DNA from: Bacilli bacterium
GTDB taxonomy: Bacteria; Bacillota_I; Bacilli_A; RFN20; CAG-288
Assembly: GCA_022652945.1 (NCBI GenBank)
Contig: JALCRV010000004.1
Span: 1-64,000 of the forward strand
Length of the DNA: 64,000 nt
Direction of reading: 5' to 3'
The first letter of the stretch is position 1. Each line of letters starts with the position of its first letter. The position numbers and the translations under genes are program-made. The notes under the pieces are model-generated. The model saw nothing but the letters and a program-made list of their open reading frames with translations. It had not been told where the DNA came from and did not search any database. Of this stretch, positions 26,908 to 47,112 are shown piece by piece.

Positions 26908-29900
26908 TTAGGCTTCAAAATATTTCAGAAGCATCTCTAATTGTTTTTTTGCGGCTCCACGGATTAGAAATTTATGCTTTGACTGGTTATTATAGTTCCT
27001 TAAGCAGTTGTAGCAAGATGTGTTGATATCGCAACAATCATGGCTTACCGTTGCCAAGCCCTCCTGAAATGCGGCTTTTAGATTGCTTATTTCGAGCAGT
27101 CGCCTTACATGGCCTGCTCCACCAGGCACGGAATCAAACAGGATGAATTGAGTAGATTTTCCCGAATCATGCCCACCGAAGATAACTGTTCCGTTAATAT
27201 CATTTCTTTCAATATCAAATGCTTTAGATATCCCCTCAAGAATGGCATAAAGGGTGGAATAGGCTTCTTCTATATTTAGGTCACGTTTTAGCTCTAATTT
27301 AACCACATCTGTGATAAAGATATACCCCAATCCAGTATGGTGCAGTTCCATGTTGCTGCAGACACTTCCATTCCTGTTGCGATGTTCTGTTTGGCTCAAA
27401 TAAGTTGGATGGCCATATTGTTTATGTATCTCTGCGTAACCACATTTAGGACAATAATAAAAATCATGGCTATTCATTATGAGAAGTTCATCGTTCCTGC
27501 AACAAGTTACTTTTATCATCCCTTTTATTTCGTATTCTTTGTCTACAGGAACTCCTCTTCCCAAATAAACAATTTCATTTGCGTATGTTCTTACCGGTTT
27601 TAGAACAGAATTACTTCTATTTTGGTTTGTCGCAGTAAAACCGAAAGTAGGTATCATAAAATAATTTTCGCCATTAATAGAACTGACGGCGGAACAATAT
27701 TCGCATTGATGATTTGGTTCAAATTTGACATCGGAAATATTAATTCTTTTACATGTTGGACAATAATAATAGTAAATTCTCTTCAATGGATTTCTTGTTT
27801 CGGTGCTAGAAAACGGCAAATTAATGTAATGAGAAGTGTACTTTTTCTTACCCATAATCAATTCAGACTCTGGAGCGTATTCCGAAAGAGCAATGGCCAT
27901 ATCTCTTGTGGGATTATGTGACTGATCCACTCTTCCTGTATAAGGATCAATCATGTCTAATTTTATGGTATCAATAGGAAAACCATAACGCGGTATTACG
28001 TTGTGGTAAGACAAAACACTAATCAAGGAAGTGTCTTGATTTCCATCACCATGAAGTAAGGTTTTTATTCTTCCTCTGCAATAATCCCTGTATTCATGAT
28101 CCTCTTCATAATTGTTAGCCGACGTTATCAATTGATCAATTTCATTTTTTATGTCTTGATTCATTAATAACAGTTTATTCTCATCATCCGGCATGTTCGT
28201 AAACCATTTCATATCTAAAAAATCCGTGGCGAAATGAATTTCATGCCCCTTACGCCCAATTATCCAGTTATCAATAGTGTCTTTGAGCTCAGAAACAATT
28301 GGCTTTTGCTTTATAAACTCGCAAAGATCGGTAACATGAGCTAAAAATGCCTCAACATCTTTGTAGGCCTCTGGATGACTTCTGAAGTAAAGACCTATCG
28401 CGGTTGCCATAAAATGGCGAATGGCAATCTTCTCGTTTTCCAACACAACATAAGGAGGTTTAATATTTCCGCCAATCATTTTCTTGGGCTCGTTAAAGAA
28501 GGTGTAGTCATGTGACATATTACTGCAAAAAGTATAAATCATGGCAGAACAGCCAGCCTTACGACCAGCCCTGCCAGCTCTTTGAACGTAATTTGCCGGA
28601 GTTGGGGGAACATTTCTCATGAGAACGGTTGAAAGTGAACCTATATCGATCCCCATTTCAAAAGTGGTTGTGCAACTCAGCACATTAATTTTCTTATCTT
28701 TAAAATCTTTTTGGTACTTTCTTGCTACATCTTTTCTCAATTCAGCAGTATGTTCCTGGCAAATTATTCTTTCCATAGGCTTTGTCATAAATTCTTTTCG
28801 GTAATAATCTCCTTGGAAATAAAGGTCAGGATTAATTGGAATAAGTTCGCCATCGCAATCGGAAGATTGGCATTTTCCGTTCAAGTTGTAAATTGTAACA
28901 TTGCCACATTTTTGGCAGGCAAAATATGACAATTGTTTGTATGAATAAAGCGAATATGAGTAAACATCAATAACAAAACTGTCTGAGCCATCAAAAATCG
29001 GAATGATAATGTTCAAATGCTTTCCAAACTGCCACAAGCATTCAGCTAATTTCGCGGCTCTATCACCATCAAGCCCTAAAACATGTTTTAGATATTTAAT
29101 CAATTTGTTGTTTTCACCACGTACTGGTAAGAAAGATCTAGCAGCTTTATTAGTCGCCTTACTTTTTAAAGGCGCTTGGAGTACAATCGGCATAATCGAG
29201 CTTCTATATGGTAAATTTTTATCCAGCTCTTCTTTTTCGCAATCCAAATTCTTATACTTTATTGCTGGTGCTGTCCTAAATATGTCAAGGCCGATATTCA
29301 ACAAGTCATCAATTTGCTGAAAAGACAAATCAAACCCTTTCTCTTTAAAAAGATTAACCACATCTTCTTCTGAAAACTGATCTTCAAAATTATGCAATGC
29401 TTTTTTTACATCAATTTTAAAAGCATAAAGACCTTTTTCTTCAGAACCGTTTCGACCATCAATTTTAAGAAGGTCTCTCAAAATAGCAAACCAAGACTCA
29501 TTTCTAATCTCGCCATCACTTTGAAAATGAAAGGCCTTTTGTCTATAAATTGAGGAGACATTTTCGAAAAGTTCGCTCATCGACAAAACTCCGGAAGGCG
29601 ATTTGTCTAGGGCTCTCCACACAACGGCTTTTCTTTCAAGTCTATCTTCATTATGCGTGAAAAACATGGAGAAAAATGCCGCCTGTTGGCGCCCATCAGA
29701 AAAGGCCAACAATTGTTTCAAATCATTGCTTGTCTGGGGCTCTTGTTGTTCATCATCAAGATTTAGCAACAAAGTTTTTCCGATAGAACTTTGGGGGATA
29801 CTCCGCTCATCAGTTTCCATGGATTCTAAAATGTTTTGCGTAAGTAAGGCAGTGGCGCTATCTTTTCCAATATGAAAGCCTACAACCGCACCATTATCTT

Positions 29901-31638
29901 CCCTATGATTGCAAATCAAGCACTTTTTAACTTTGTTTGTACTCTCGACTTGAATAATTGTATTTTCGAACTCTTCACCACACAAACATTTTTCAGCATT
30001 GATGTCGTTCTTTTTATGAATAGACCCGCATTTGCTGCAAATTACATACTCACGTTCAGCTATGTCAGGGATATCTTCTTTTTCTTCTTCCGAGAGAGAA
30101 TCCTCTAAAATAAAATAATCCACTTGTCTAGCTGATTCATCATTGTTTTCCTCATCTACCTCAAAGGAGTCTACCTGTTGAAAGTAATCAAGATTCTTGT
30201 CACCACGGCGAATTCTTCCTGTTAAATATGGTGTACCGCAAAATTCACAAATTGAAACAATAAACGCCTTAAATCCATCAATTTGCTCTGTTTTTTTTAA
30301 CTCCAAAGCCGGGTGCGGTTTTAGTGTAATATAAGCACCTTCAGGTGCTCGAACAAAACTATGGTATTTAAGAGTAAATATTTGAATTCCATAATCAGAT
30401 TCAGCTTTTGCAAGCAATTCAATCAAATCCGAAAGTTCATCTTCTGAAATGTCTTCGATTTTTCGAAAGTTTTCTAGAAGCTCATCAAATGAAGGAATAT
30501 CTTTCGATAGTTCATAAAGTGTAAAAACATTTTCATCATGTTCCAAGAGGAGATAAAGCATCTTCGGAATGGAAAAGTCATCATTGCTTTTCGTGTATTC
30601 ATTTTCAATGTTTTTGACAAAAATTGAGTCACAAATGTTCTTGGTCAATTCCGAATAAACTCGTCCAGGCAATTTATATTTAATATTACTTTTATCTAGA
30701 TTGATTCTATCTGCAAAAATAACGTCTTCTGGCAAAAAAGTGCATGATGTTAAATCGGTAGCAAATTCAGCTACTTTTTCCGCATCTTCCCTACCGTTGC
30801 CAAGGGTTGCTGAAGTAAGTATAAATTGTGGGATTTTTTTTGCAAACCCTATTAGACGTCTCATTAAATACCCTATTTCAATTGCCTCTGTTCCTCTATA
30901 AGAATGAGCTTCATCCAAAACAACATATTTCCAATTGGTCATTGAACCAGAATTAATAATCGCCTCATCATTCGGCCTAATCAAAATATAATCAAGCATT
31001 GAATAATTAGTAAAAAGAATTTGCGGAGGATTCGCTCTCATTTCTTCTCGACTCATAAGTTCATTGGCTAATCCCGGATTTTTATTATCCCTTTTTATTT
31101 GTTCAGGAGTTTCTCCGTTATAAAAGCCAAAAGTAATTTGTGGGAAAACAGATAGAATATTTCTTAACCTCTCAACCTGATCATTAATTAAGGCGTTCAT
31201 TGGGAAAATTAGAATAGCTCTTATTCCTGCGAATCCAATGCCAGCTTTACTTTCTTTAATCAATTCATTGATAATCGGATATAAATAACATTCCGTTTTG
31301 CCTGATCCAGTCCCAGTTGTTACAACAATATTTTTTCCTGCGCCGACTTTATTTATAGCTTCTTCCTGATGCAAATATAAAGGGCGATCAACATTCTCGG
31401 GAATTGCATCAATAAATTCAGGCTCAAGTCGTGATGCCGCAACAAGTTGACGAATAGTAGGTCCCTTTTTAAAAGGAAGATACACACTTAAATATGGCCC
31501 TTTAAACAAATCATATTGCTTTAAACGTTCTCGAAATAATTCATCGTAAACCTTATCTTTGATTCGAAATGTCGATTGAATATAATCAGCAAATTCTTTT
31601 TTAACAAATTTGGCTTGTTTTATAGGACTGTTTTTCAT
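26908..31638 (-). CDS. Large SF2 helicase with DUF1998-type C-terminus
   Basis: The ATG at 31638 has AGGAGG upstream; the frame extends to 31794 but overlaps the preceding gene. The 1,576-residue protein has Walker A TGTGSGKTE (about 106-114), the DEAH box VLDEAHSYRGTEAIE (about 240), LTSATLGN (about 274) and the C-terminal helicase motifs GIDIGSLSTVL (about 995) and QRAGRAGRKAG (about 1022). Several CxxC zinc sites are scattered through it, and a cysteine cluster CCDINTSCYNCLRNYN ends the protein (about 1535-1550). This is the DUF1998 helicase class, which includes MrfA (DNA repair), DrmA (DISARM) and DruE (Druantia). It lies 13 bp downstream of the 913-aa gene and is surely co-expressed. 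A defence role is inferred from the island context. Confidence 0.85.
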   Translation of the reverse strand: MKNSPIKQAKFVKKEFADYIQSTFRIKDKVYDELFRERLKQYDLFKGPYLSVYLPFKKGPTIRQLVAASRLEPEFIDAIPENVDRPLYLHQEEAINKVGAGKNIVVTTGTGSGKTECYLYPIINELIKESKAGIGFAGIRAILIFPMNALINDQVERLRNILSVFPQITFGFYNGETPEQIKRDNKNPGLANELMSREEMRANPPQILFTNYSMLDYILIRPNDEAIINSGSMTNWKYVVLDEAHSYRGTEAIEIGYLMRRLIGFAKKIPQFILTSATLGNGREDAEKVAEFATDLTSCTFLPEDVIFADRINLDKSNIKYKLPGRVYSELTKNICDSIFVKNIENEYTKSNDDFSIPKMLYLLLEHDENVFTLYELSKDIPSFDELLENFRKIEDISEDELSDLIELLAKAESDYGIQIFTLKYHSFVRAPEGAYITLKPHPALELKKTEQIDGFKAFIVSICEFCGTPYLTGRIRRGDKNLDYFQQVDSFEVDEENNDESARQVDYFILEDSLSEEEKEDIPDIAEREYVICSKCGSIHKKNDINAEKCLCGEEFENTIIQVESTNKVKKCLICNHREDNGAVVGFHIGKDSATALLTQNILESMETDERSIPQSSIGKTLLLNLDDEQQEPQTSNDLKQLLAFSDGRQQAAFFSMFFTHNEDRLERKAVVWRALDKSPSGVLSMSELFENVSSIYRQKAFHFQSDGEIRNESWFAILRDLLKIDGRNGSEEKGLYAFKIDVKKALHNFEDQFSEEDVVNLFKEKGFDLSFQQIDDLLNIGLDIFRTAPAIKYKNLDCEKEELDKNLPYRSSIMPIVLQAPLKSKATNKAARSFLPVRGENNKLIKYLKHVLGLDGDRAAKLAECLWQFGKHLNIIIPIFDGSDSFVIDVYSYSLYSYKQLSYFACQKCGNVTIYNLNGKCQSSDCDGELIPINPDLYFQGDYYRKEFMTKPMERIICQEHTAELRKDVARKYQKDFKDKKINVLSCTTTFEMGIDIGSLSTVLMRNVPPTPANYVQRAGRAGRKAGCSAMIYTFCSNMSHDYTFFNEPKKMIGGNIKPPYVVLENEKIAIRHFMATAIGLYFRSHPEAYKDVEAFLAHVTDLCEFIKQKPIVSELKDTIDNWIIGRKGHEIHFATDFLDMKWFTNMPDDENKLLLMNQDIKNEIDQLITSANNYEEDHEYRDYCRGRIKTLLHGDGNQDTSLISVLSYHNVIPRYGFPIDTIKLDMIDPYTGRVDQSHNPTRDMAIALSEYAPESELIMGKKKYTSHYINLPFSSTETRNPLKRIYYYYCPTCKRINISDVKFEPNHQCEYCSAVSSINGENYFMIPTFGFTATNQNRSNSVLKPVRTYANEIVYLGRGVPVDKEYEIKGMIKVTCCRNDELLIMNSHDFYYCPKCGYAEIHKQYGHPTYLSQTEHRNRNGSVCSNMELHHTGLGYIFITDVVKLELKRDLNIEEAYSTLYAILEGISKAFDIERNDINGTVIFGGHDSGKSTQFILFDSVPGGAGHVRRLLEISNLKAAFQEGLATVSHDCCDINTSCYNCLRNYNNQSKHKFLIRGAAKKQLEMLLKYFEA

Positions 31639-31651
31639 AGTTAGATTCCTC

Positions 31652-34393
31652 CTAAAATTTAATCTTGAATTCATCACCAACAGGCAATAAACACGAATCT
31701 CCATCAAACACAGAAAGCGGATAAGATGTGTTATCAACCAACATTCCATCTTTATCCATATCCAGCAATAGTATATAAGCAGTCTTATCTTCAAATATTT
31801 CTAAGAAAGTGACCACCACATCTGTTTTTTTGAAAAAAGGAACTCTTTCCTTGTGAGAATCTAATTTATATATTTTCCCCAAAAAATCACCATCATCTGT
31901 TTTAGCGACAATATTTACAAATATATTGGAAACAGCGGCGTTTTTATGCTCATACCCTTTGAATAAAAAAGATACATGAGTTATTTGAAAGGTCATGCCT
32001 ATGCACGCATCAATGTTTGCTAAGAAAAATGATCCTTGAGTATTGGGAAAGACATAGTCTTGTGGATCACTCGACCAAAATCCAGAACGCTCACAAAGAA
32101 AATAATTATAAGTTGTAAAACTTTTCCCTTTCCAACTAATCGGCCCTTGGTAAAGTAAATACTCAGGCGTACTTTTTGATTCATTATTTTTTTCAAAAAG
32201 ACAAACAGATACTTTATTAGGGCCTTTTACATTAATGGAAAAGTCAGCGGAGGAAGCAAAGATAGCTCCTTGAGGCGCGGATAAAATCGACACTTTGTCA
32301 TGTAAGTAGCAGAAAAAGCCAAACTTCTCAATCTCATCTTCACAAAAGGCGACTCTAATTGACTTTTTGCTGAGATAATTCAGCAAAAAGCCTATAGAAA
32401 AAACAACATCCCCGCCTTCCCTTCTTAAGCTACCTGTCTCCGAAAGAATGTTTCCCTTCTCGTCATAAATTTTGAGTGAGGAATTTTTACTAAGGGCCTT
32501 AATTCTCAAAAGTGAACTCGGCTTCAATTCGGAAAGAAAAACTGGGTCATCAGGAGTCATTATTCCGCTATCATCTATTGAAAATATCGTTGGAATTGAA
32601 ATTATATGATATATGCAGGGGACGTTAAAAACCATAAAGTTAAGTTGAATCAAATCCTGACTAAGCGGCACTCTTGCATCCAAGCATTTAAAAAAAGATG
32701 ATTGAATCCTAATAATATTCTCATCCCTGCTCAGTGTCTCACCGACTATTGAAAACTGTTCATCAACAAAAATCCTATAATCACAAAGAAGGCCCTTTTT
32801 GCCATTCGAATCATCTATACAAATAATCCTATGAAAGCCATTGCTTAAGGGTGGCAAATAAAGACGTAAGAGATCAAACGATGCTGTATGAGAAGATTGG
32901 ATATCAACTTTTTCATTATCAATATAAAGCAATAATCCGATGGCATTTTCCCTTTTAATAATCAAAGAAGAAACTGATGTGTAAACATTACATGAATCCA
33001 GACTAATTTTCGATTTGCATGAAGCACGTTGAACAAGGCAACCATCAATACCAGGTTTAATATCTTTTGAAAAAACCATTTGTCGATCATTTAGAAGAAA
33101 ACGTTGAAGCCTCTTAACATTAAACGACACCAATGAGTAACTACCGATTGATTTTATAAAATAAGCATCTTTAGGAAAAGAATGTGCAAAAGCAAAAACA
33201 GTTCCAACGTAGTCGGAATCGATCTGAATCTCTTCCCCTTGATCATTGAAAAGCAAGTAATCTCTGCAAAGGGAATCTTTGCTATCATATAAAATCCTCT
33301 CGCCACACATGACCTTATAACGAAGCAAACCCAGCGGTTCGTCAATAACATATGACTCACCATTTAAACGATAGCCCCCAAATATCTCCGAGATGCTTGG
33401 TTTAGAAAACACTTTTATTCCACTTGATAAAATGATGTTTACAGCAATTTTCCTAGCGTCACAGTCAGAGGGTATATTAATGTCAAAAGTATTTAAAAGG
33501 CATTTTGCATTCGAAAATGTCAGAAATGGCAGCCTTTTGTGACAAAATTTTCGATCCTTGGCGTTTTTCTTTGAAGCAGTCGAATATTGACTAGCCCATA
33601 TTGAAAATTCTTTGAAATAATAAGAATTGTCGTCAACATTTAGGCCGTTACTCCATTGGTCAATTTTCTTTAAGCACTCAATTGAAAGAGAAATTAAATC
33701 AGCAATATATTTACCTCCAGAAACAATGACGGCTTTTGTATATTGAGACAATTTATATGTCTTTTTCATACCGGAAATAGAAACGTCAAGCTCATCATTT
33801 GACACATTGCTAGACAAAAGACTGCTTAATCCTTTGTAAATATAGGCAAAACTATTAAATAATTCCTGGTCGTTAAATGCAGTAATGTCGTAATTGAAAT
33901 TCACCCGATAAATATCTAATATAAAATCCAAGAAGTATGTTATCCAGTTCGCCGAAACTATTGCCATCATTAGAGGGACTGCGATGATACTGGTTTTATT
34001 AAAATAATCACTTGGGAATTGTTTAATAATCCTTCTTATTACGCTATCAGTTTTTTCACTTGGAAAAGAGTCATATAAATTCCGGTATACTTCTCTTAAA
34101 TGTTCCCATACTCTATCATCATATTTTCTAATACAATTTAACGATACTGAAAGTATTACCTTTTCAACATCCTTTCCTGCAATAGGAGTACTTTGATTAT
34201 TAATGTAAAAGCGTATAACGCTCTGAGCAACCTTATGTATATGCTCTACAACGTTTGTGTCCTCACAAAAGATTCGCAAAAACCTATAGCAAGTTCCTGT
34301 TTTTTCTAAATTATCCAAAGCATCAGATAACAAAGAATCACAGTCTGACCGGTTTGGTATAGTATCGTCCATTTGACCGACTAAAAAATTCAT
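31652..34393 (-). CDS. Large uncharacterised partner of DUF1998 helicase
   Basis: The 913-residue protein has no motif I recognise. The first 300 residues look helical; the remainder is a long run of beta-strand-type segments (e.g. IGLLLYIDNEKVDIQSS, LLRIKALSKNSSLKIYDEKG), possibly several Ig-like or beta-sandwich domains. No signal peptide or membrane helix is seen, so it is cytoplasmic. Its stop is 13 bp before the helicase start, implying one transcript. The arrangement of a large unknown protein with a large DUF1998 helicase recalls Druantia type III (DruH-DruE), but I cannot claim homology. No ribosome binding site precedes the ATG; a TAAAAT box 6 bases upstream could give a leaderless mRNA. 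Confidence 0.7.
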   Translation of the reverse strand: MNFLVGQMDDTIPNRSDCDSLLSDALDNLEKTGTCYRFLRIFCEDTNVVEHIHKVAQSVIRFYINNQSTPIAGKDVEKVILSVSLNCIRKYDDRVWEHLREVYRNLYDSFPSEKTDSVIRRIIKQFPSDYFNKTSIIAVPLMMAIVSANWITYFLDFILDIYRVNFNYDITAFNDQELFNSFAYIYKGLSSLLSSNVSNDELDVSISGMKKTYKLSQYTKAVIVSGGKYIADLISLSIECLKKIDQWSNGLNVDDNSYYFKEFSIWASQYSTASKKNAKDRKFCHKRLPFLTFSNAKCLLNTFDINIPSDCDARKIAVNIILSSGIKVFSKPSISEIFGGYRLNGESYVIDEPLGLLRYKVMCGERILYDSKDSLCRDYLLFNDQGEEIQIDSDYVGTVFAFAHSFPKDAYFIKSIGSYSLVSFNVKRLQRFLLNDRQMVFSKDIKPGIDGCLVQRASCKSKISLDSCNVYTSVSSLIIKRENAIGLLLYIDNEKVDIQSSHTASFDLLRLYLPPLSNGFHRIICIDDSNGKKGLLCDYRIFVDEQFSIVGETLSRDENIIRIQSSFFKCLDARVPLSQDLIQLNFMVFNVPCIYHIISIPTIFSIDDSGIMTPDDPVFLSELKPSSLLRIKALSKNSSLKIYDEKGNILSETGSLRREGGDVVFSIGFLLNYLSKKSIRVAFCEDEIEKFGFFCYLHDKVSILSAPQGAIFASSADFSINVKGPNKVSVCLFEKNNESKSTPEYLLYQGPISWKGKSFTTYNYFLCERSGFWSSDPQDYVFPNTQGSFFLANIDACIGMTFQITHVSFLFKGYEHKNAAVSNIFVNIVAKTDDGDFLGKIYKLDSHKERVPFFKKTDVVVTFLEIFEDKTAYILLLDMDKDGMLVDNTSYPLSVFDGDSCLLPVGDEFKIKF

Positions 34394-34454: not shown

Positions 34455-35210
34455 GTTAAGTGACAAACTCAACGCAACAGGTACTCATTTCTAGAAGCGA
34501 CATTTAAGGACTGATTTAATGAATTCTTCCTTTAAAGCCTTTCCCTTGACTGAATATCTATAATAATTCCCTGTACATATAAGCCAGATAATCTTATCTA
34601 AAGCATAAGGAGTAATCTTCCCTGCTTCAGCTGTTTTAATAACAGCCTTAAAACAGCTCCAAGGATCATTCTTAGCTAAACCAGTCTGATAGAAGACATC
34701 TATCAGATGTAGGTCTGGTTTAGGATAATCCAGATATCCTAATTCCTTTAACCAATCACAGGCTAAGGCCAAACCCATACCATGGATCTCTTTACCTAAC
34801 ATTAAAGGTAAGGCTTCTTTGGTATAAAGATTTAAAGAGAAGTTCTGGATGAACTTATCAAACTCCTGATAGCTATTAAAAGAAGATAGAAAGCGGGCTC
34901 CGTCGATTAAAGAGATGGAGTATTGTCTCCAGGTATTCTGAGGGCTTTGGATGTTCTTAATCTTAAAATGGGAAGCGAAGGCATCAAGTAAAGAGTCTGG
35001 ATTATATTTCTTAAGGATTGCCTGATAATCCAGATCGCAAAGGATTGAATCTATTTCATCCTTCCTTTTTAAGTAGTTAATGACTTTGGGCCTTGATTGA
35101 TAGTCTTGCATCGTAGAGACAAAAGCCTGAAAGACACCTTTTAGATCAGTACATTTAAAATCAGGCTTAGATATGAAGTCATCTATTTGTTCTTAGTTAA
35201 GTGACAAACT
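34455..35210. repeat. 15-bp direct repeats flanking a gene
   Basis: GTTAAGTGACAAACT occurs at 34455-34469 and again at 35196-35210 in the same orientation, 741 bp apart. The two copies bracket the gene at 34491-35111. They may mark the edges of an inserted or exchanged segment, or be a shared regulatory site. Confidence 0.65.
34491..35111 (-). CDS. Possible HhH-GPD-type DNA glycosylase-like protein
   Basis: The 206-residue protein has a segment LGKEIHGMGLALACDWLKEL (about 104-123) that fits a helix-hairpin-helix, followed by PKPDLHLIDVF, where an Asp sits in the place of the catalytic Asp of endonuclease III-type glycosylases. The assignment is by pattern only. The reading frame stays open and protein-like upstream of the ATG at 35111, to 35192 (includes FKCTDLKGVFQAFVSTMQDY). 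No ATG, GTG or TTG with a ribosome binding site is found there, so the 5' end may be truncated or use an unusual start. The gene lies between two 15-bp direct repeats and between the AbiH-like gene and the 913-aa gene. Confidence 0.5.
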   Translation of the reverse strand: MQDYQSRPKVINYLKRKDEIDSILCDLDYQAILKKYNPDSLLDAFASHFKIKNIQSPQNTWRQYSISLIDGARFLSSFNSYQEFDKFIQNFSLNLYTKEALPLMLGKEIHGMGLALACDWLKELGYLDYPKPDLHLIDVFYQTGLAKNDPWSCFKAVIKTAEAGKITPYALDKIIWLICTGNYYRYSVKGKALKEEFIKSVLKCRF

Positions 35211-35325: not shown

Positions 35326-36549
35326 TTAAGAAGCCTCGGGATATTTCAAGGAGGAAAAAGGATTTATTTCTCTAACTTCGATTGTGTCTGTATTCACCAA
35401 ATTAGATAATAGATTCCCATTACCAGAGCAATAAATATCATAGGCATAGATCAATCTTTCAACTCTTTGCTTGATTTCTTTTATTGCATCTTCCTTTGTT
35501 TGGCAATCATGTATGGAATATTTAAAAATGATTTTTTGCCCATGTTTTTTTTGCAATTCGATAGTATCAAAAAATTGAAAGAAATAGGGATAGTCTTGTT
35601 CATTCAAAGAATGCCCGAAGAAAACAATGGTCTTGGGAGTGAAATTGGTTTCACGTTTGTCTAAGTTTTCCCGAATACTAAGTTCAAATTGTCGAGAGGC
35701 CTTTGTGAAAATATAGGAAGGATCTTGCGGATTATTGGGCTTTGAGATTCCAAATATCAGGGTACAACTCGAATCTGAAATTTGACCATGGATATGGCGT
35801 AAAGAATATTTCAGCCCATATGCGGGAAGATAGTTAAACGTCTCGATAGAAAGGGGTAAATTTCCATCTGACAATAGTAAAACAAGAGAATCTCTTCTTG
35901 CTATATATTCTCCTTTGTTAGTAACTAATTGATTTAGCAAATATTTACCAAACCTATTTTCAAAAGAAAGAAGCTGTGACAAAAGAGTTTCATAAAAAGA
36001 GTCGTTATCTTGATAAACGGTTGAAAATGGCTTAAATAAAAAACTATTACACAAAGTCTCAACTAAAAAGGAATCATCAGGAGAAAAATTTAAACCGGAG
36101 TATGTAATAGATTGATCATGGAAATGGTCTGACGAGCCCTGTTCCTCATATTGAATTATCATTTCGCGGATTATGGCCCAATTTATCACATGTTTTTTGT
36201 TATTTGGCTTTTCAAAAGTTGATGAGATTACAGATTCTAAATCACACCAACCGATTTTCTCAGGGCTTGCTTTGAAAGAATAGATAAGAAAAACTATATC
36301 CCAAATAGTGAAATTCGAAAAAGACTGTGTTTCTTTCAGCAAATTGTGTGGATACCAACTGCAGTTAATATCTCCGTATTGGATGGTATCTCGCATATAA
36401 CCATATACACTACGAAAAGTTGGATTTGTATTAACTTGGTCGTTAAAAAAGTCGGCATATCGCGTTTTTAGGCCACACGCCAAATCAAATCCATTGCCAA
36501 TTATTAAGAGGGTGGGATTAGTCAAATCAACAAAATTATCAGTCTGCAT
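35326..36549 (-). CDS. AbiH-family abortive infection protein
   Basis: The 407-residue protein opens with TLLIIGNGFDLACGLKTRYADFF (about 13-35), the hallmark of the AbiH family, and near its end has VFFGHSLNEQDYPYFFQFFD. AbiH was described as a lactococcal phage abortive infection protein; its mechanism is unknown, though the GNGFDL loop suggests nucleotide binding. It is cytoplasmic with no membrane helices. It lies 98 bp downstream of three overlapping unknown genes on the same strand and could belong to their transcript. There is no strong ribosome binding site upstream. Confidence 0.85.
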   Translation of the reverse strand: MQTDNFVDLTNPTLLIIGNGFDLACGLKTRYADFFNDQVNTNPTFRSVYGYMRDTIQYGDINCSWYPHNLLKETQSFSNFTIWDIVFLIYSFKASPEKIGWCDLESVISSTFEKPNNKKHVINWAIIREMIIQYEEQGSSDHFHDQSITYSGLNFSPDDSFLVETLCNSFLFKPFSTVYQDNDSFYETLLSQLLSFENRFGKYLLNQLVTNKGEYIARRDSLVLLLSDGNLPLSIETFNYLPAYGLKYSLRHIHGQISDSSCTLIFGISKPNNPQDPSYIFTKASRQFELSIRENLDKRETNFTPKTIVFFGHSLNEQDYPYFFQFFDTIELQKKHGQKIIFKYSIHDCQTKEDAIKEIKQRVERLIYAYDIYCSGNGNLLSNLVNTDTIEVREINPFSSLKYPEAS

Positions 36550-38968: not shown

Positions 38969-40840
38969 TTATCTCAATCTTCCCTTAATGTATTCTCTTA
39001 GCGCCTGATCCTTGCAGTAAATAAAGCATCCCTTCTGGCCTCTTGTCATAAGTACCTTATAAGTATCTCTGATAAGCCTGTCTGCTAAAGCATCATCTTT
39101 GCAGGTCCTGATTTTAGAAGAGTTGTCATCTTTGGATATAGCGTTTTTATCCGTAACCACTTTCCCATCTCGATAAATCAAATCATCTCCAATGATGACC
39201 CCGACATAATCAAACTCCAAACCCTGGCAGGTATGAATACAGCCAACTTCTTCAAAAGACGATGGAAGGATAGCCCAAAGTTCACTGTTTTCATCTAAGT
39301 TCCATCTTGCCTTAAAGCCATTGTCGAGGTAGATATCATAATCATCCCGATGGAACTTCACATCCCAATCGAAGCAATAGCCAGCCACCATTCTGGCTTT
39401 ATTGTTAATCTGATTCAGTTGTCTTAGTTCATCCCTCATCTGATTAGGATCATCGAAGACTTTCATTTTAAAGCCTTCTAAATCAAGGCATTTATTAGCT
39501 GTCTGCTTAATGCCTAATAAATCATCGATAAAAGCGATGTAGCCATCGCTGCCATTGCAGCGGAACTGGCTGGAAAGGACTAAGTCGTCCCCGTGGAAGA
39601 TATGATTATCATCAATTCCAAGTTCCCGTGCCCAGGCAATGATTCCATCTACAGAGCCAATATCATTCACCGTGATTCTCTGATCTTCATCAATAAAGAA
39701 AATCGATAAAGTGGCAGCATTAATACACTCTTTAATTTGATTTTGTCCGTGGTAGTCTCTTCCATACTTTTTAACTAAACGATGGGCTTCATCAATTAAA
39801 AGACAGTCATAAGAATTAACCGGAACCTCGCATAAGCCAAAAGGAGACCTAAAAAGCGAATTAATATTAACTTGCTTTTTAATATCATTCTTCGAAAGCA
39901 AATTCAGATAGCATTTACGAGGGGCGCTGTTTTTAGTGACGTAAGCTACATTACTACCGGTCCTAAGTAAGTCACAGAGAAGATTGATTGCCAGGACCGA
40001 TTTCCCGGTCCCTGGCCCGCCTTGAATAATCATTACTCTCTTATGGCCATCTTTGTTACAATCGGCCATAGCTTTAATGCAGGCATCATAAACCGTGGAT
40101 TGTTCATCCATCAGCTGGAACTCTTTATTTCCTCTTAGCATACTTGCTAAACAATCCTGCAAGGCTTTTGCCGGTCTGATTTTACCGTTGTCGATCTTAT
40201 AGAGCAATTCTCCATCGGAACTCTTCTTTGTGATGAATCTAAGGATGAAATCCCTCAGTTTCATCATATCAGTCTTAAGGAATAAAGGAGCCTCTTCAAT
40301 CCAGGTCTTATAGATAGGATCCTCAATGATATATCTATCCGCTTCTCTATAGTTATGGCAGTAAGAGCAAGGATATAAATGAATGTTCTTATCAGCTACA
40401 ACTTCGGAATAATTCATGATATGGACAGCATAAGAATAAGCTTGGTAGCAAGGATGGGCTTCTACTCTTACAGCACCACCGGTAAAAGCGCGGACACTAT
40501 GGGTCTGAAGATCATCAACTTTTTCTACGGTAGACCATTGCTTAAGTTCAATGATTATTACATTGTCTTTTCCATAGTCATCGCTGCCAGAAATGATAAA
40601 GTCTACTCTTTTAGATGTTTGAGGAATGTTATATTCGATATCAATATCACAGTTAAGAGGAATCCGCGGGTCATCTAAAACGTTATGCATGAACTGCATA
40701 CTGTTATTCCAAGCATTGTATTCGCTGCTATTCTGATCGTTGATTCCGTGTTTAATCAGAGCCTCTTTAACATAATCAGCAATCATGTTGTTGATTACAT
40801 CGTGATCAAAGTTAGCTTTGGTATTGTGATATACAAGCAT
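38969..40840 (-). CDS. PD-(D/E)XK nuclease fused to DUF2075 helicase-like domain
   Basis: The ATG at 40840 has GGAGG 6 bases upstream. The 623-residue protein has an N-terminal nuclease-like core RVDFIISGSDDYGKDNVIII followed by ELKQWS (about 75-105), giving the D...ExK arrangement. A DUF2075 / Schlafen-type SF1 ATPase domain follows with GGPGTGKS (about 273-280), LLIDEAHRL (about 348) and the C-terminal IRDTYKVLMTRGQKG. The family is predicted to be a DNA/RNA helicase-nuclease; many members sit in defence loci. A clear paralogue, same size and order, lies at 52502-54373 on the opposite strand. It is transcribed alone, away from a 545-bp gap. Confidence 0.83.
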   Translation of the reverse strand: MLVYHNTKANFDHDVINNMIADYVKEALIKHGINDQNSSEYNAWNNSMQFMHNVLDDPRIPLNCDIDIEYNIPQTSKRVDFIISGSDDYGKDNVIIIELKQWSTVEKVDDLQTHSVRAFTGGAVRVEAHPCYQAYSYAVHIMNYSEVVADKNIHLYPCSYCHNYREADRYIIEDPIYKTWIEEAPLFLKTDMMKLRDFILRFITKKSSDGELLYKIDNGKIRPAKALQDCLASMLRGNKEFQLMDEQSTVYDACIKAMADCNKDGHKRVMIIQGGPGTGKSVLAINLLCDLLRTGSNVAYVTKNSAPRKCYLNLLSKNDIKKQVNINSLFRSPFGLCEVPVNSYDCLLIDEAHRLVKKYGRDYHGQNQIKECINAATLSIFFIDEDQRITVNDIGSVDGIIAWARELGIDDNHIFHGDDLVLSSQFRCNGSDGYIAFIDDLLGIKQTANKCLDLEGFKMKVFDDPNQMRDELRQLNQINNKARMVAGYCFDWDVKFHRDDYDIYLDNGFKARWNLDENSELWAILPSSFEEVGCIHTCQGLEFDYVGVIIGDDLIYRDGKVVTDKNAISKDDNSSKIRTCKDDALADRLIRDTYKVLMTRGQKGCFIYCKDQALREYIKGRLR

Positions 40841-41385
40841 AAAGACCTCCAAAAAGTGAGAATAAATAGAAGACTTATAAAAGAATTATATATTAAAAGT
40901 GAGGTGAAATATTAAACTTTTTAAAGGTCATAAAAGAAGGCACTAATTTATCCTAAAAATGAACATCACGAATTCCAAAAACTATGAAGTGCCAAAGAGA
41001 GACGATAAATAACAAAAGCACAACTTCATTCATTTAATAAAGTTTCACTTCAACGTATTATTCCGCTTTTATGTGATGAAGCTTTATAAAATCTGTATCG
41101 TGTGACTTTCAAAGAAAATAAAAGCCGGATTTTTTGGTTATTCTTATTTTACGGCAGGGGAAAAAATTAACATATCTCGAGAATTAAATTTAACTTTAAC
41201 AATAAAATCAATTGGTCTTTATAAGTGACAGTTATAATAGCACATCATATGATTAACATCTGACACGTATCAAATTCGTATGACGGCTAATAACAAAAGC
41301 ATTTCTTTTATGTCTTCATGTCCATTTGACAATTGCCTAATTTTTAATGCGTGATTATAATTAAAATATACTAGGAGATATAAAT
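40841..41385. other. Intergenic region, 545 bp
   Basis: An AT-rich divergent gap between the DUF2075 gene and the zinc-ribbon gene. It must hold both promoters. I see no RNA gene, repeat array or coding frame in it. Confidence 0.4.
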
Positions 41386-42083: not shown

Positions 42084-43382
42084 ATGTCACAAAAAGCACC
42101 TGCTATGGTAAAAAAACTATTGCCATCTAAATTTGCAGAACTCAAAGATGATTGGAGTAATCCGGATACCAAAGAACACAAGATGCATTCTATACATCAG
42201 TATCCAGCCAAGTTTCCTTCCTTTATAGCATCAAAAGCTTTCGAATATGCTGAAGGTCACGGCATTGATGTGCATACTGTAGGGGACGTTTTTTGTGGCT
42301 GCGGTACTGTCGCATTAGAATCGGAACTTCATGGAGACAATTTTTGGGGATGTGATATTAGCCCTGTTGCGGTCATGATTGCGAAAGCTAAAAGCCATGT
42401 CTATTCGACTTCCAGACTTCAAAAGCTTTTTGACATAGTAAAAACTTCTTACTCCGCCTCAGTAAATGATGAGCCTCCACAACTCGGAAGCCAAAGAATA
42501 GCCTTTTGGTTCGAAAAAAGACAAATAGTCAAATTGGCTAAAATAAAGAATTCCATAGACATGTACACTGCTAGGAATTCAAAATACAGGGATGCTTTTT
42601 ATTGCATTTTTTCATCAATTCTTAAGCCTTGTTCCCGTTGGCTTTCCCAATCAATTAAGCCACAGGTTGATCCTTGCAAGGTGCCAGCCGACCCCTTTGT
42701 TCTCTTTGAAAAACAGTTTATCCGATTCAAAAAAGCCTCTGAAGAAATAAACATCGATCTTAATAAGCAGAAGATCCGCAAAGCTTCTGTTGAAATCAAA
42801 AAAAAGAATATTTTATCCGCAAAGCCTCGGCCAAAAGTTGATATCATTATCTCAAGCCCTCCTTATGTTACTTCCTATGAGTACGCAGATCTTCATCAGC
42901 TTTCCACTCTTTGGCTAGGATACGCTGAAGACTATCGCGATTTGCGGAAAGGAACAATCGGGAGCTCCTACGGAAGCACTGAAAACGATTTTTCCAGATA
43001 CAAGCTCAATTACGTCGGGGAAGAAATTGTTAACGAGCTTCAAAAAAGAAGAGTGGAGCCTTCAAAGGTGCACGCAGTTGCCAGATATTACTCCGATATG
43101 GAAACAGTATCCAAGCGCTGTTATGGATTACTCAAACCTGGAGGCATGGCGCTTTTTGTGGTTGGAGATACCGAGTTCAAAAAAGTAAAAATCAGGAATT
43201 GTGACCATTTGTGGGAATGTATGCAACAAGCAGGGTTTTCGGAATTAGATTGTTGGAAGCGGAGAATCTGCGGAAAAACACTGTCTCCCTATCGTGATGG
43301 GAATGGTCGTTTTTCTAAAGACGCACAGCAGCGACAAATATATCGCGAAGAATATGTGATAGTGGGGAGGAAAATGTCATGA
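42084..43382 (+). CDS. DNA methyltransferase (SPPY-type), first gene of kinase operon
   Basis: The 432-residue protein contains the SAM-binding motif I GDVFCGCGTVALE (about 67-79) and the catalytic motif IV SSPPYVTSYEYAD (about 257-269). An N-terminal HQYPAKFPSFI block (about 38-48) is typical of a class of DNA amino-methyltransferases. SPPY suggests N4-cytosine or N6-adenine methylation of DNA. A long insertion between the motifs may carry target recognition. The TGA stop overlaps the next gene's ATG (ATGA), so it is translationally coupled to the histidine kinase-like gene. No restriction endonuclease is encoded next to it. It starts after a terminator, so the operon is independent of the zinc-ribbon gene. 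Confidence 0.85.
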   Translation: MSQKAPAMVKKLLPSKFAELKDDWSNPDTKEHKMHSIHQYPAKFPSFIASKAFEYAEGHGIDVHTVGDVFCGCGTVALESELHGDNFWGCDISPVAVMIAKAKSHVYSTSRLQKLFDIVKTSYSASVNDEPPQLGSQRIAFWFEKRQIVKLAKIKNSIDMYTARNSKYRDAFYCIFSSILKPCSRWLSQSIKPQVDPCKVPADPFVLFEKQFIRFKKASEEINIDLNKQKIRKASVEIKKKNILSAKPRPKVDIIISSPPYVTSYEYADLHQLSTLWLGYAEDYRDLRKGTIGSSYGSTENDFSRYKLNYVGEEIVNELQKRRVEPSKVHAVARYYSDMETVSKRCYGLLKPGGMALFVVGDTEFKKVKIRNCDHLWECMQQAGFSELDCWKRRICGKTLSPYRDGNGRFSKDAQQRQIYREEYVIVGRKMS

Positions 43383-45655
43383 ACGAAACGCTGAAAATCA
43401 AACCATACGCAAGGCTTATTACGATGCTAGGCGATCAGCTAATAAAAGATGAATCGGTCGCTTTGTCAGAACTTATCAAAAATTCCTATGATGCTGACGC
43501 TTCTTGCGTCATAGTTTCTTTTATTGGTTTTTCCGATGAGATGAAGCCGCTTGACGGCGCGAGAATAGAGATTTCCGACAATGGCTCAGGAATGACGGAA
43601 AACGTCATTAAAGATTCATGGCTGAATCCTGCAACCCCTGGTAAATATAATCTTATTCTTTCTGGAAAAGACCATACTCCGAGCGGACGTATTATTCAAG
43701 GGGAAAAAGGCATTGGTAGATTTTCTATTTTCAAATTAGGAAAGACCATTAAAATGGTGACGACCCCACAGAAGTTTTTAGGTGGCAACCCCGTTGATGA
43801 AGCAATTGGCCCCCGCTTCATTGTTGATTATGATTTTTCAATGTTTGACGATTCTTTTTCTGATTCTTCTGGCAAGAACCTTTATCTCGATGAGTTAGGC
43901 GTTTCTTTTAGCTCCTCAGAAGATCTGAGTTGCATCTATCCCAAATCCAAACCATATGGAACGAAATTAATCATATCAAACCTGCGTGGGACATGGGGAA
44001 ATGACAAAATTAAAAAAGTCCAAAAATCAATTGCAAGAATGTTGCCGATATTTGAGGACGGGGACGAAAACAATAAGAAGCGTGACGACTCTGTTTCTTC
44101 CATCGACTTTCCGTCTACCGAAGAGAAACAAAACAAATCTTTTGATGTCAAGATATTGAAAAATGGCGAACCTTTTTTATCTGAAAATGATCAAAAAGCC
44201 AGGCTAATCAATTTGCTTCACTCGGATAAACCTGCCATCAAGATTTCTAAGGGTCATTTCAATTCAGACACTTTAACCTACACCTACGAAGAAAACGGAA
44301 GTCCAAAAGCAATTGTGCTAGCGCAAGGGACGCGCCTTTCCGCTCTGAAGGAGGGTCGAGATATCTTGAGCAATGGTTCCGTTTCATGCGGACCGTTCGA
44401 TTTCGAATTTTATATTTTCGACCCAGCCGCATCAATAGACGATGAGCCCGAACACCGCCTTGAGAAAGATGAATACGACATCATTAAGGAACACCGCATT
44501 TACCTTTACCGGGATGGGATTCGTGTCATGCCATATGGAGATCCTGAAGATGATTGGCTTGGCATTGATATGCTTAGAGGTGTTGAAAAAGCCAGCTCTT
44601 TTATGAGTAACGACCAAACCGTTGGTTGTATTAGAATCTCGCGAACAGAAAACCCATTTTTACAAGACAAAACAAGTAGAGAAGGCTTAATTGAGAATGG
44701 CAGGGCGACGACCGATTTTGTTGCCGCCATTCGTTTGTTCCTCAGGTGGATTCGTTCTGATTCATACATGACGTACATCCAAACCAAAGATAGAAAGAAA
44801 GAAGAGAATCGATTGGCCTCTGAGACAACCCTTAAAGTCATCGCTGATGCTAAGGAAAAGTTCAAGAACTTTCCTGAGATTATCCCTGCTCTCGACAAAA
44901 TTGCCGCTAGTTACTCCTCGGATAAGAGTGAATACGAGAGACGGCTGGAAGTAACCGACCGACTGGCCGGGGTAGGAATGTCGATTGAGACCACCTCACA
45001 TGACGTCAATCTCTTTTTGGGAAGAGCGGCGGATGGGGTTGACATTCTTATTTCAGGGGCATCGGCAGGCTCCAAACTCTCTGAAGAAGAACTACTAGCA
45101 AAACTAATTGCAGTAAGAGGTGACCTTTCTTTCGCCCAAAAGCAAATGGATAACATTGGTATTCTTTATCCTGGAACAAGAGCAAAGCCCAAAAATGTGA
45201 ACGTTTGGGCCATTGCTGAAAAAATAAGGCAAATTTACGCTTTTCAATTTAACAAAAATAATATTTCCTGTGATATTCAGATGCCGAGTTCCCCTCTGAT
45301 TGTAAATACTGTGGACGCCGTTCTCTTACAAACGTTTATCAACCTTTTTGATAATTCGTTGTTTTGGTTAAAAACATGCGCCGTTGGTGAAAAGAAAGTG
45401 TCCATCTCAGTCGATTCAGAATCAAAGAAAGTAATCTTTTCCGATAATGGCCCAGGCATACCGGATTCGGACATTGGCTTTGTGTTTAAACCGTTTTTCT
45501 CGCGTAAGGGAGATGATGGTAAGGGTCTTGGTCTTTACATTGCAAAACAGCTTTTGGAAAGATATGGGTTCTCAATTGGTTTGATTACCGCACAGGAAGA
45601 CAAGATTCTTCCCGGAGCGAACTTTCAAATTGATTTTGCATCAGCTAGGAGGTAG
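43379..45655 (+). CDS. Cytosolic histidine kinase with two GHKL ATPase domains
   Basis: The 758-residue protein has an N-terminal GHKL ATPase of the Hsp90/MutL/MORC type: ELIKNSYDADA (31-41), EISDNGSGM (64-72) and GEKGIGRFS. Near the middle is a dimerisation/phosphoacceptor-like helix LAGVGMSIETTSHDVNLFLG with His 541. A C-terminal HATPase_c follows with FINLFDNSLFW (about 650), DNGPGI (about 689) and GKGLGLYIAKQL (about 713). No membrane helix or signal peptide is seen, so it is cytoplasmic. Two ATPase folds around a kinase-like His box is an unusual layout; MORC/MutL-like GHKL proteins have been described in restriction-modification contexts. Coupled to both neighbours, it probably signals to the receiver-like protein downstream. 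Confidence 0.82.
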   Translation: MNETLKIKPYARLITMLGDQLIKDESVALSELIKNSYDADASCVIVSFIGFSDEMKPLDGARIEISDNGSGMTENVIKDSWLNPATPGKYNLILSGKDHTPSGRIIQGEKGIGRFSIFKLGKTIKMVTTPQKFLGGNPVDEAIGPRFIVDYDFSMFDDSFSDSSGKNLYLDELGVSFSSSEDLSCIYPKSKPYGTKLIISNLRGTWGNDKIKKVQKSIARMLPIFEDGDENNKKRDDSVSSIDFPSTEEKQNKSFDVKILKNGEPFLSENDQKARLINLLHSDKPAIKISKGHFNSDTLTYTYEENGSPKAIVLAQGTRLSALKEGRDILSNGSVSCGPFDFEFYIFDPAASIDDEPEHRLEKDEYDIIKEHRIYLYRDGIRVMPYGDPEDDWLGIDMLRGVEKASSFMSNDQTVGCIRISRTENPFLQDKTSREGLIENGRATTDFVAAIRLFLRWIRSDSYMTYIQTKDRKKEENRLASETTLKVIADAKEKFKNFPEIIPALDKIAASYSSDKSEYERRLEVTDRLAGVGMSIETTSHDVNLFLGRAADGVDILISGASAGSKLSEEELLAKLIAVRGDLSFAQKQMDNIGILYPGTRAKPKNVNVWAIAEKIRQIYAFQFNKNNISCDIQMPSSPLIVNTVDAVLLQTFINLFDNSLFWLKTCAVGEKKVSISVDSESKKVIFSDNGPGIPDSDIGFVFKPFFSRKGDDGKGLGLYIAKQLLERYGFSIGLITAQEDKILPGANFQIDFASARR

Positions 45656-45657
45656 AA

Positions 45658-47112
45658 ATGGCATCTGAAAATGATATCAGTTTTATCAAAGCAATAGGCG
45701 ATTTTTCGGTAATTGTTGACGATTGCGTGAATGACGGAACTGAGCCGAAGCCGGAGATTGCAACGGTTGGAGAAGGGATTAATGTTATAGACTCGATTCG
45801 ACTCTTCCTTCTGAAAAATCACATTCCAGTTGTTTGCTATCGAACTGTCCCGTCCGATCCATCGGTTTTCTCCGGTGCTTCTCTTTCAATCATCGATTGG
45901 GACATGACTTCTATTACTGCAGCAAGAGCGGTTGTGGAGGAAAGTGTGAAAGACATGATTGAGGAGCATGTCAAGAGGTTTTTTTCTCCTGTTTTGATTG
46001 TAACTAGCGAATCATTAGATGTAATCAAAAGTGCTTTGGAAGAAGAAGACTGGTATCCAAAGAACACTAAGCGGATCATTTTGAAAAAAAAGGACGATTT
46101 TAAGATTGACGGCTTTTTTTCTGATAAAAGGTTCGTCGCCTTTTTACAAGATACTTTTTCCCGTTTTCCATCATTGAAGGTCCTCAGTGAATGGCATCAA
46201 GCGATGCTAGATGGAGGAAACGAGCTCTTCACAGAAATGTCCGAATTGTCACCTTCTTGGGCTAAGACTCTCTTCGATAATTTTGCTGATGGAGAAAATG
46301 ATGTCGGCCTCGCACTAGAGTCAAAAAGAAGACATTTTGGTTCTTTTTTGTGCACCAATCTTCTTGGGAGGGTGGACTTTACCTTTAAATCTTTGGAGTC
46401 TGAAGAAGAGTTGCCCGTTGACACGACTCTAGGAAAGGTTGGCGAAACGCCCAACTATTTATTAGAAAGAATCGTTGAGCATTCGAGATTAGTTCTTTTA
46501 GGTGATGAGAACAATGGTGTCTCAGCAAAGCCTCACGCTGGTGACCTTTTTGTTTTTAATAAAAATGAGTCACTGCTTAAAGATTATGTAGATCTAGACC
46601 AACTTCTCGAAAATGAAGACTATTGCCTTTTAAACATCAGAGCACAGTGTGATTTCGCCAGGAAGAAAAAAGATGTTTATCCCAAACTTTATTGCCTCCT
46701 TGGAACTTTCAGCAATACCTTGAAGAAATCAGGCGGAGCCAAATATCCTATAATCGTGAAAAATGATCGCATAATTGACTCTGACAATAAATCCCATCTT
46801 TTTTCTGAAATAACCGGTTATCAAGAATCAGAATTGAAGCAGCTTGAAAGGGTTCTTAACGAGGAAGATCCCACGCGATGTGGCGGAGATTATTCAGAGA
46901 AGCCATCAGAGGCAATCGTTTCCTGCGTTTTGGGACACAATAGCGTTTCTTTTCAGTTTCACTCCTTGTTTGTGATTCCCTTTGAGGCAATCAAGTCTTT
47001 GCGAAAGGCTACCCTCCTAGACCCATACCTATCAAGGGTTCAACAAAAGTTTTCTTTGTATATGGTTAGAGTTGGCGTCCCAAATACCCCGCTGAATGAT
47101 TTATACAAGTAG
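45658..47112 (+). CDS. Receiver-like protein, probable effector of kinase operon
   Basis: The 484-residue protein begins 2 bases after the kinase stop, with AGGAGG inside the kinase's last codons. Residues 16-145 look like a response regulator receiver domain: VIVDDC with the acidic pair Asp 21-Asp 22, SIIDWDM with Asp 80 as possible phosphoacceptor, VLIVTSE with Thr 116, and RIILKKK with Lys 143-145. The receiver is stretched by a loop before Asp 80. The remaining 340 residues (e.g. LFVFNKNESLLKDYV, YCLLNIRAQCDFARKKKD) match no family I know and are the likely output or effector part. Function is inferred from gene order. Confidence 0.6.
   Translation: MASENDISFIKAIGDFSVIVDDCVNDGTEPKPEIATVGEGINVIDSIRLFLLKNHIPVVCYRTVPSDPSVFSGASLSIIDWDMTSITAARAVVEESVKDMIEEHVKRFFSPVLIVTSESLDVIKSALEEEDWYPKNTKRIILKKKDDFKIDGFFSDKRFVAFLQDTFSRFPSLKVLSEWHQAMLDGGNELFTEMSELSPSWAKTLFDNFADGENDVGLALESKRRHFGSFLCTNLLGRVDFTFKSLESEEELPVDTTLGKVGETPNYLLERIVEHSRLVLLGDENNGVSAKPHAGDLFVFNKNESLLKDYVDLDQLLENEDYCLLNIRAQCDFARKKKDVYPKLYCLLGTFSNTLKKSGGAKYPIIVKNDRIIDSDNKSHLFSEITGYQESELKQLERVLNEEDPTRCGGDYSEKPSEAIVSCVLGHNSVSFQFHSLFVIPFEAIKSLRKATLLDPYLSRVQQKFSLYMVRVGVPNTPLNDLYK

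Follow-up and report, generated by a model that had tools for sequence, protein, structure and literature searches.

A helicase gene and its upstream partner

The window (the whole stretch of 64,000 nucleotides analysed here) carries on its minus strand two intact, co-directional ORFs, one coding for a 913-aa protein and lying 5' of the other, which codes for a large helicase. The partner stop codon (31652-31654) and the start codon of the helicase (ATG, 31638) are 13 bp apart, in agreement with the spacing and position given in the original prediction, and a strong ribosome-binding site for the helicase, found by direct reading of the sequence, overlaps that stop codon, suggesting that the two genes are translationally coupled. 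A longer helicase ORF of 1,628 aa with a TTG start was rejected as an unsupported upstream extension, the 1,576-aa version being the better model. The features of the pair are:

31652..34393, minus strand: partner gene, 913 aa, intact ORF; DruH-like, probable sensor or scaffold
33584..34351, minus strand: partner residues 15-270, predicted to form a helical N-terminal domain (AlphaFold2 model; hhalign to the DruH N-terminal domain)
31655..33526, minus strand: partner residues 290-913, predicted to form tandem Ig/FnIII-like beta-sandwiches (AlphaFold2 model and fold search)
31648..31653, minus strand: helicase ribosome-binding site AGGAGG, overlapping the partner stop codon
26908..31638, minus strand: DruE-family (YprA-like) SF2 helicase, 1,576 aa (PADLOC DruE1 E 7.6e-172, DruE3 E 4.1e-156)
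30799..31371, minus strand: DEAD/DEAH helicase domain, residues 90-280 (PF00270 E 6.7e-25; Walker A and DEAH intact)
28558..28776, minus strand: helicase C-terminal domain, residues 955-1027 (PF00271 E 1.3e-13)
27001..27249, minus strand: MZB/DUF1998 zinc-binding domain, residues 1464-1546 (PF09369 E 2.6e-10, genome search)

Judged by its sequence, the helicase is clearly a DruE. It unites the DEAD/DEAH core, the Helicase_C domain and an intact DUF1998/MZB domain in one chain that matches the DruE profiles, with its core motifs intact—Walker A (GTGSGKT, 109-115), DEAH (242-245) and SAT (276-278)—and with eight CxxC motifs. The DrmA (DISARM), DpdJ and BREX helicases fall far behind DruE in the PADLOC scores, and the best match among the sequences of solved structures is 9tu7_Y (E 3.3e-79), the Druantia III helicase. 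The chain stops about 30 residues past the MZB domain, which leaves no room for C-terminal PLD nuclease domains, and the helicase hence lacks a nuclease. The DruE of E. coli Druantia III, for which the solved structure gives 2,108 aa, carries two PLD domains past the MZB domain (PMC13192584).

Several further genes lie on the upstream side of the pair. Directly upstream of the partner is a 206-aa gene (34491-35111) with a very weak match to a DNA glycosylase (E 0.012), and just upstream of the pair is an AbiH-family gene (35326-36549; PF14253 E 3e-21). A Schlafen group 3-type helicase (38969-40852; PF09848 E 6e-91) has an N-terminal extension that looks nuclease-like, and a divergent three-gene run (42084-47112) codes for a DNA methyltransferase, a GHKL ATPase and a 484-aa protein for which a PHROGs search returned no match.

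The partner family across genomes

None of the PADLOC, Pfam, NCBIfam and PHROGs profiles matches the 913-aa protein, which is thus as unrecognized as originally predicted. A single-sequence search of 279 genomes of the order found it in its own genome and in none of the other 278, and comparable searches of plasmids, viral contigs and genome contigs returned no relative. Such searches are too weak for this protein; a search led by the helicase, combined with a reading of the upstream gene, worked. It yielded relatives within the same class and 80 further loci. At 72 loci a gene coding for 700-1,970 aa lies directly upstream of the helicase on the same strand, and 64 of these 72 upstream genes—a few of them duplicate or near-identical, with 61 kept in the alignment—fall into one BLAST component with the window protein (E below 1e-4). 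The loci were selected by the helicase alone and the upstream gene was read afterwards; hence, the test of pairing is unbiased, and the pairing is not due to chance.

Three more partners were added to the family by profile (99.2%), and cyanobacterial DruE loci also carry it (profile 98.5%, E 2.4e-14). At two cyanobacterial loci (L048:4358-7989 and L049:4155-7986), a further gene, about 310 aa in length, sits between the partner relative and DruE; at the first of these, PADLOC recognizes neither the partner relative nor this further gene. The cyanobacterial hit prompted a look at a kinship with DruB/DruC of Druantia I, which was rejected: the DruB/DruC-like profile and that of a 955-aa Nitrosococcus protein gave no match.

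Compared at the same loci, the partners share 22-26% identity and the helicases 36-40%, the partner being the faster to diverge. DruH is likewise reported to diverge faster than DruE (PMC13192584). This pattern of sequence change would fit a sensor that faces the phage, although it could have other causes. In a tree of 70 helicases (a quick search with SH-aLRT support only), 46 sequences with this partner group with eight whose partners are different or unresolved in a single supported clade, which is separate from, and beside, that of the DruH-paired DruE proteins.

The identification of the helicase also bears on whether the pair belongs to defence at all, as it could instead represent a helicase for DNA repair accompanied by a structural protein. 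Repair helicases, MrfA among them, do occur in the YprA family (PMC12458937). However, the window helicase scores as a DruE and not as a repair helicase, the partner gene goes undetected in the 278 other genomes of the order, and the pair adjoins the AbiH-family gene and other defence-like genes. We regard a repair function as very improbable.

The family varies around and within the partner. Where DruE is at least 1,694 aa long, a homologous gene for a NERD-nuclease/UvrD-like helicase follows no more than 13 bp downstream at 14 of 17 loci. Among loci with a shorter DruE, such a gene follows at 1 of 38. The window locus has a short DruE and no NERD/UvrD-type gene; its Schlafen-type helicase (38969-40852) was considered as a counterpart of this third gene and rejected, as it is not that gene. 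In three Chloroflexota genomes, the partner carries a complete sigma-70 factor, with regions 1.2, 2, 3 and 4, fused to its C-terminus. The respective loci are:

L033, L038, L039, L056, L058, L061, L074, L081, L087, L092, L097, L105, L113, L125: NERD/UvrD-type gene directly after DruE
L100:5930-9967, L106:5927-9967, L127:5742-9776: partner-sigma-70 fusions

Two other partners have distinctive ends, one with Sel1 repeats at the C-terminus (L035:11814-15143) and one with an N-terminal domain matching phrog_3989 (L054:6787-10002). A more far-reaching and tentative possibility is that the family, spread over Bacillota, Chloroflexota, Bacteroidota, cyanobacteria and archaea, represents a separate class of modular sensors of infection, with variable ends that plug DruE motors into different outputs such as the NERD-nuclease helicase or the complete sigma-70 factor. 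If so, one branch would link the sensing of phage to transcription.

Architecture of the partner and its possible relation to DruH

The AlphaFold2 model of the partner (mean pLDDT 78.6) places helices in residues 15-270 and strands in residues 290-913, bearing out the division into a helical N-terminus and a long beta-rich region that had been proposed from the translation; residues 14-290 modelled alone reach a pLDDT of 89.2 and a pTM of 0.86. The further claim of an unknown fold survives in part. Most of the proteins that Foldseek and VIA-align list for the beta region are of the Ig/FnIII type (best Z 8.4). These matches are generic and indicate the fold class only, and this part of the protein is probably a string of ordinary Ig/FnIII-like sandwiches. 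The claim holds for the helical domain, for which nothing exceeds Z 5.3 among the listed solved structures. DruH is not among the listed fold matches; its structure, 9tud, is represented by a sequence, but the fold library may lack it.

Across the family, conservation is strongest at positions that are mainly hydrophobic, aromatic, glycine or proline, without a recognizable catalytic set, which would be more in keeping with a scaffold for binding than with an enzyme. At two of the conserved positions in the N-terminal domain the window protein itself deviates from the consensus, with M143 in place of H and S147 in place of P, a point against its taking the role of DruH. The pattern of conservation weighs against the partner being a nuclease or toxic effector that DruE restrains or delivers, an idea that derives its appeal from the lack of a nuclease in the window DruE and from the DruH-DruE work, in which dimeric DruH nicks DNA (PMC13192584) and the DruH of M. 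smegmatis is toxic without DruE (PMC13192584, PMC13316683). With mainly hydrophobic and glycine/proline conservation and no nuclease profile matching the partner, we consider such an effector unlikely.

The original prediction held that a significant match to a DISARM or Druantia component would make this a known system; none of the DruH, DISARM and Druantia profiles matches the partner directly. With E values up to 0.1 allowed, neither PADLOC DruH3 nor NCBIfam NF038336 (YjiT_fam) finds the window protein, and the DruH models of both collections match true DruH and none of the six partner-family members tested alongside. Scans of viral contigs for DruH returned no loci. A full-length hhalign comparison of the partner family with DruH is null. 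Within-family controls reach 95-100% for most pairs, but two pairs with the Chloroflexota subset failed too; hence, the full-length test is not fully sensitive.

Side-by-side reading of the sequences pointed to an N-terminal pattern common to the partner and DruH. With hhalign restricted to this part, the family scores 24.5 against 11 DruH-type sequences and 37.3 against 14 (E 5.4e-7, probability 86%), the result varying with the alignment (probability 28-86%, E 1e-4 to 5e-7); the nulls do not exceed 8.7 when columns are shuffled (60 shuffles) or 11.2 when the comparison is with unrelated families (15 families). Among the nine region pairs compared, only N-terminal against N-terminal scores, with a collinear match, and no DruH-like match is detectable for the C-terminal region of the partner. 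The aligned region contains the DruH patch 63-137, in which mutations abolish or enhance defence (PMC13192584, PMC13316683). The link was conceived by inspection and then tested on alignments that included the inspected sequences, and the homology is for this reason only suggestive: the partner may be a distant cousin of DruH by way of its N-terminal domain, a relationship that is not proven. An earlier conclusion that the two are unrelated, drawn from the full-length null, was reversed by the restriction to the N-terminal domain and the addition of DruH sequences.

That conclusion nevertheless persists as an alternative, in which the pair forms a separate DruE-based class, the resemblance to type III extends to the number of genes and nothing else, and the N-terminal similarity reflects convergence of short helical domains. 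The null full-length comparison, the helicase clade apart from the DruH-type DruE proteins and the different accessory genes (the NERD-helicase third gene and the sigma-70 fusions) would all accord with it. It has to contend with an N-terminal match that is collinear, lies far above both the shuffled and the real-family nulls and involves the corresponding part of both proteins. We take it to be a minor but credible possibility.

A probable Druantia type III-like module and its relation to known systems

Our preferred reading, held with moderate confidence, is that the pair constitutes a two-gene anti-phage module resembling Druantia type III, in which a DruH-like sensor acts with a nuclease-less DruE motor. 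Its role in defence, the sensing by the partner and the targeting of DNA are modelled on the published DruH-DruE work. The partner would take the role of DruH, its helical N-terminal domain being regulatory and its chain of Ig/FnIII-like domains most likely recognizing a structural protein of the phage or some other sign of infection. Once triggered, the partner would license DruE, which could then load on 3'-single-stranded replication intermediates and block replication of the phage DNA. As this DruE has no nuclease, any damage to DNA would have to be inflicted by the partner or by host nucleases (e.g., RecBCD-like enzymes), or result from stalling alone.

Defence annotation tools will call the helicase DruE and leave the partner blank; hence, many systems of the Druantia-like kind, in Bacillota as in further phyla, are likely to be overlooked or recorded as incomplete. 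With the partner family defined, and with evidence of a DruH-type regulatory domain in it, there is also a handle on how DruE is switched on and how its nuclease is replaced.

Among known systems, DISARM shares a DUF1998 helicase module with the pair. However, the window helicase is far closer to DruE (8e-172) than to DrmA (2e-17), its DUF1998 domain is in the same chain as the helicase, and PADLOC finds no DrmB or DrmC among the neighboring genes scanned. Nor does PADLOC match any of the neighboring window genes to the Druantia I/II components that accompany DruE (DruA-D; DruF/G/M). ARMADA (PMC12458937) has a YprA/DruE-like helicase related to Druantia, but the window operon is of two genes, and neither a BrxHII-like helicase nor a PglX-like methyltransferase is present in it or among the neighboring genes scanned.

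The likeness to Druantia type III noted in the original prediction holds, with a helicase that is clearly DruE and a partner whose N-terminal domain is suggestively linked to that of DruH by profile comparison. Both have two co-directional genes, the large partner first and DruE second (PMC13192584, PMC13316683), and the partner appears to combine a helical N-terminal domain with Ig-like domains, as published for DruH (PMC13192584). The window pair differs from type III in that no DruH or YjiT model recognizes its partner, its DruE is without the two PLD domains and this DruE belongs to a clade other than that of the DruH-paired forms.

This clade is probably the "Druantia Type III-like" branch of the YprA family (representatives GIH50614.1 and MES1925543.1) delineated by Bell et al. 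in their 2025 preprint (PMC12458937), the main text of which makes no mention of DruH or of a partner family. A helicase branch of this kind had thus been noted before, and the partner family is what is missing from current models. Bell et al. describe a distinct branch of DruE whose helicases are most often without a nuclease domain—the same combination as seen in the window.
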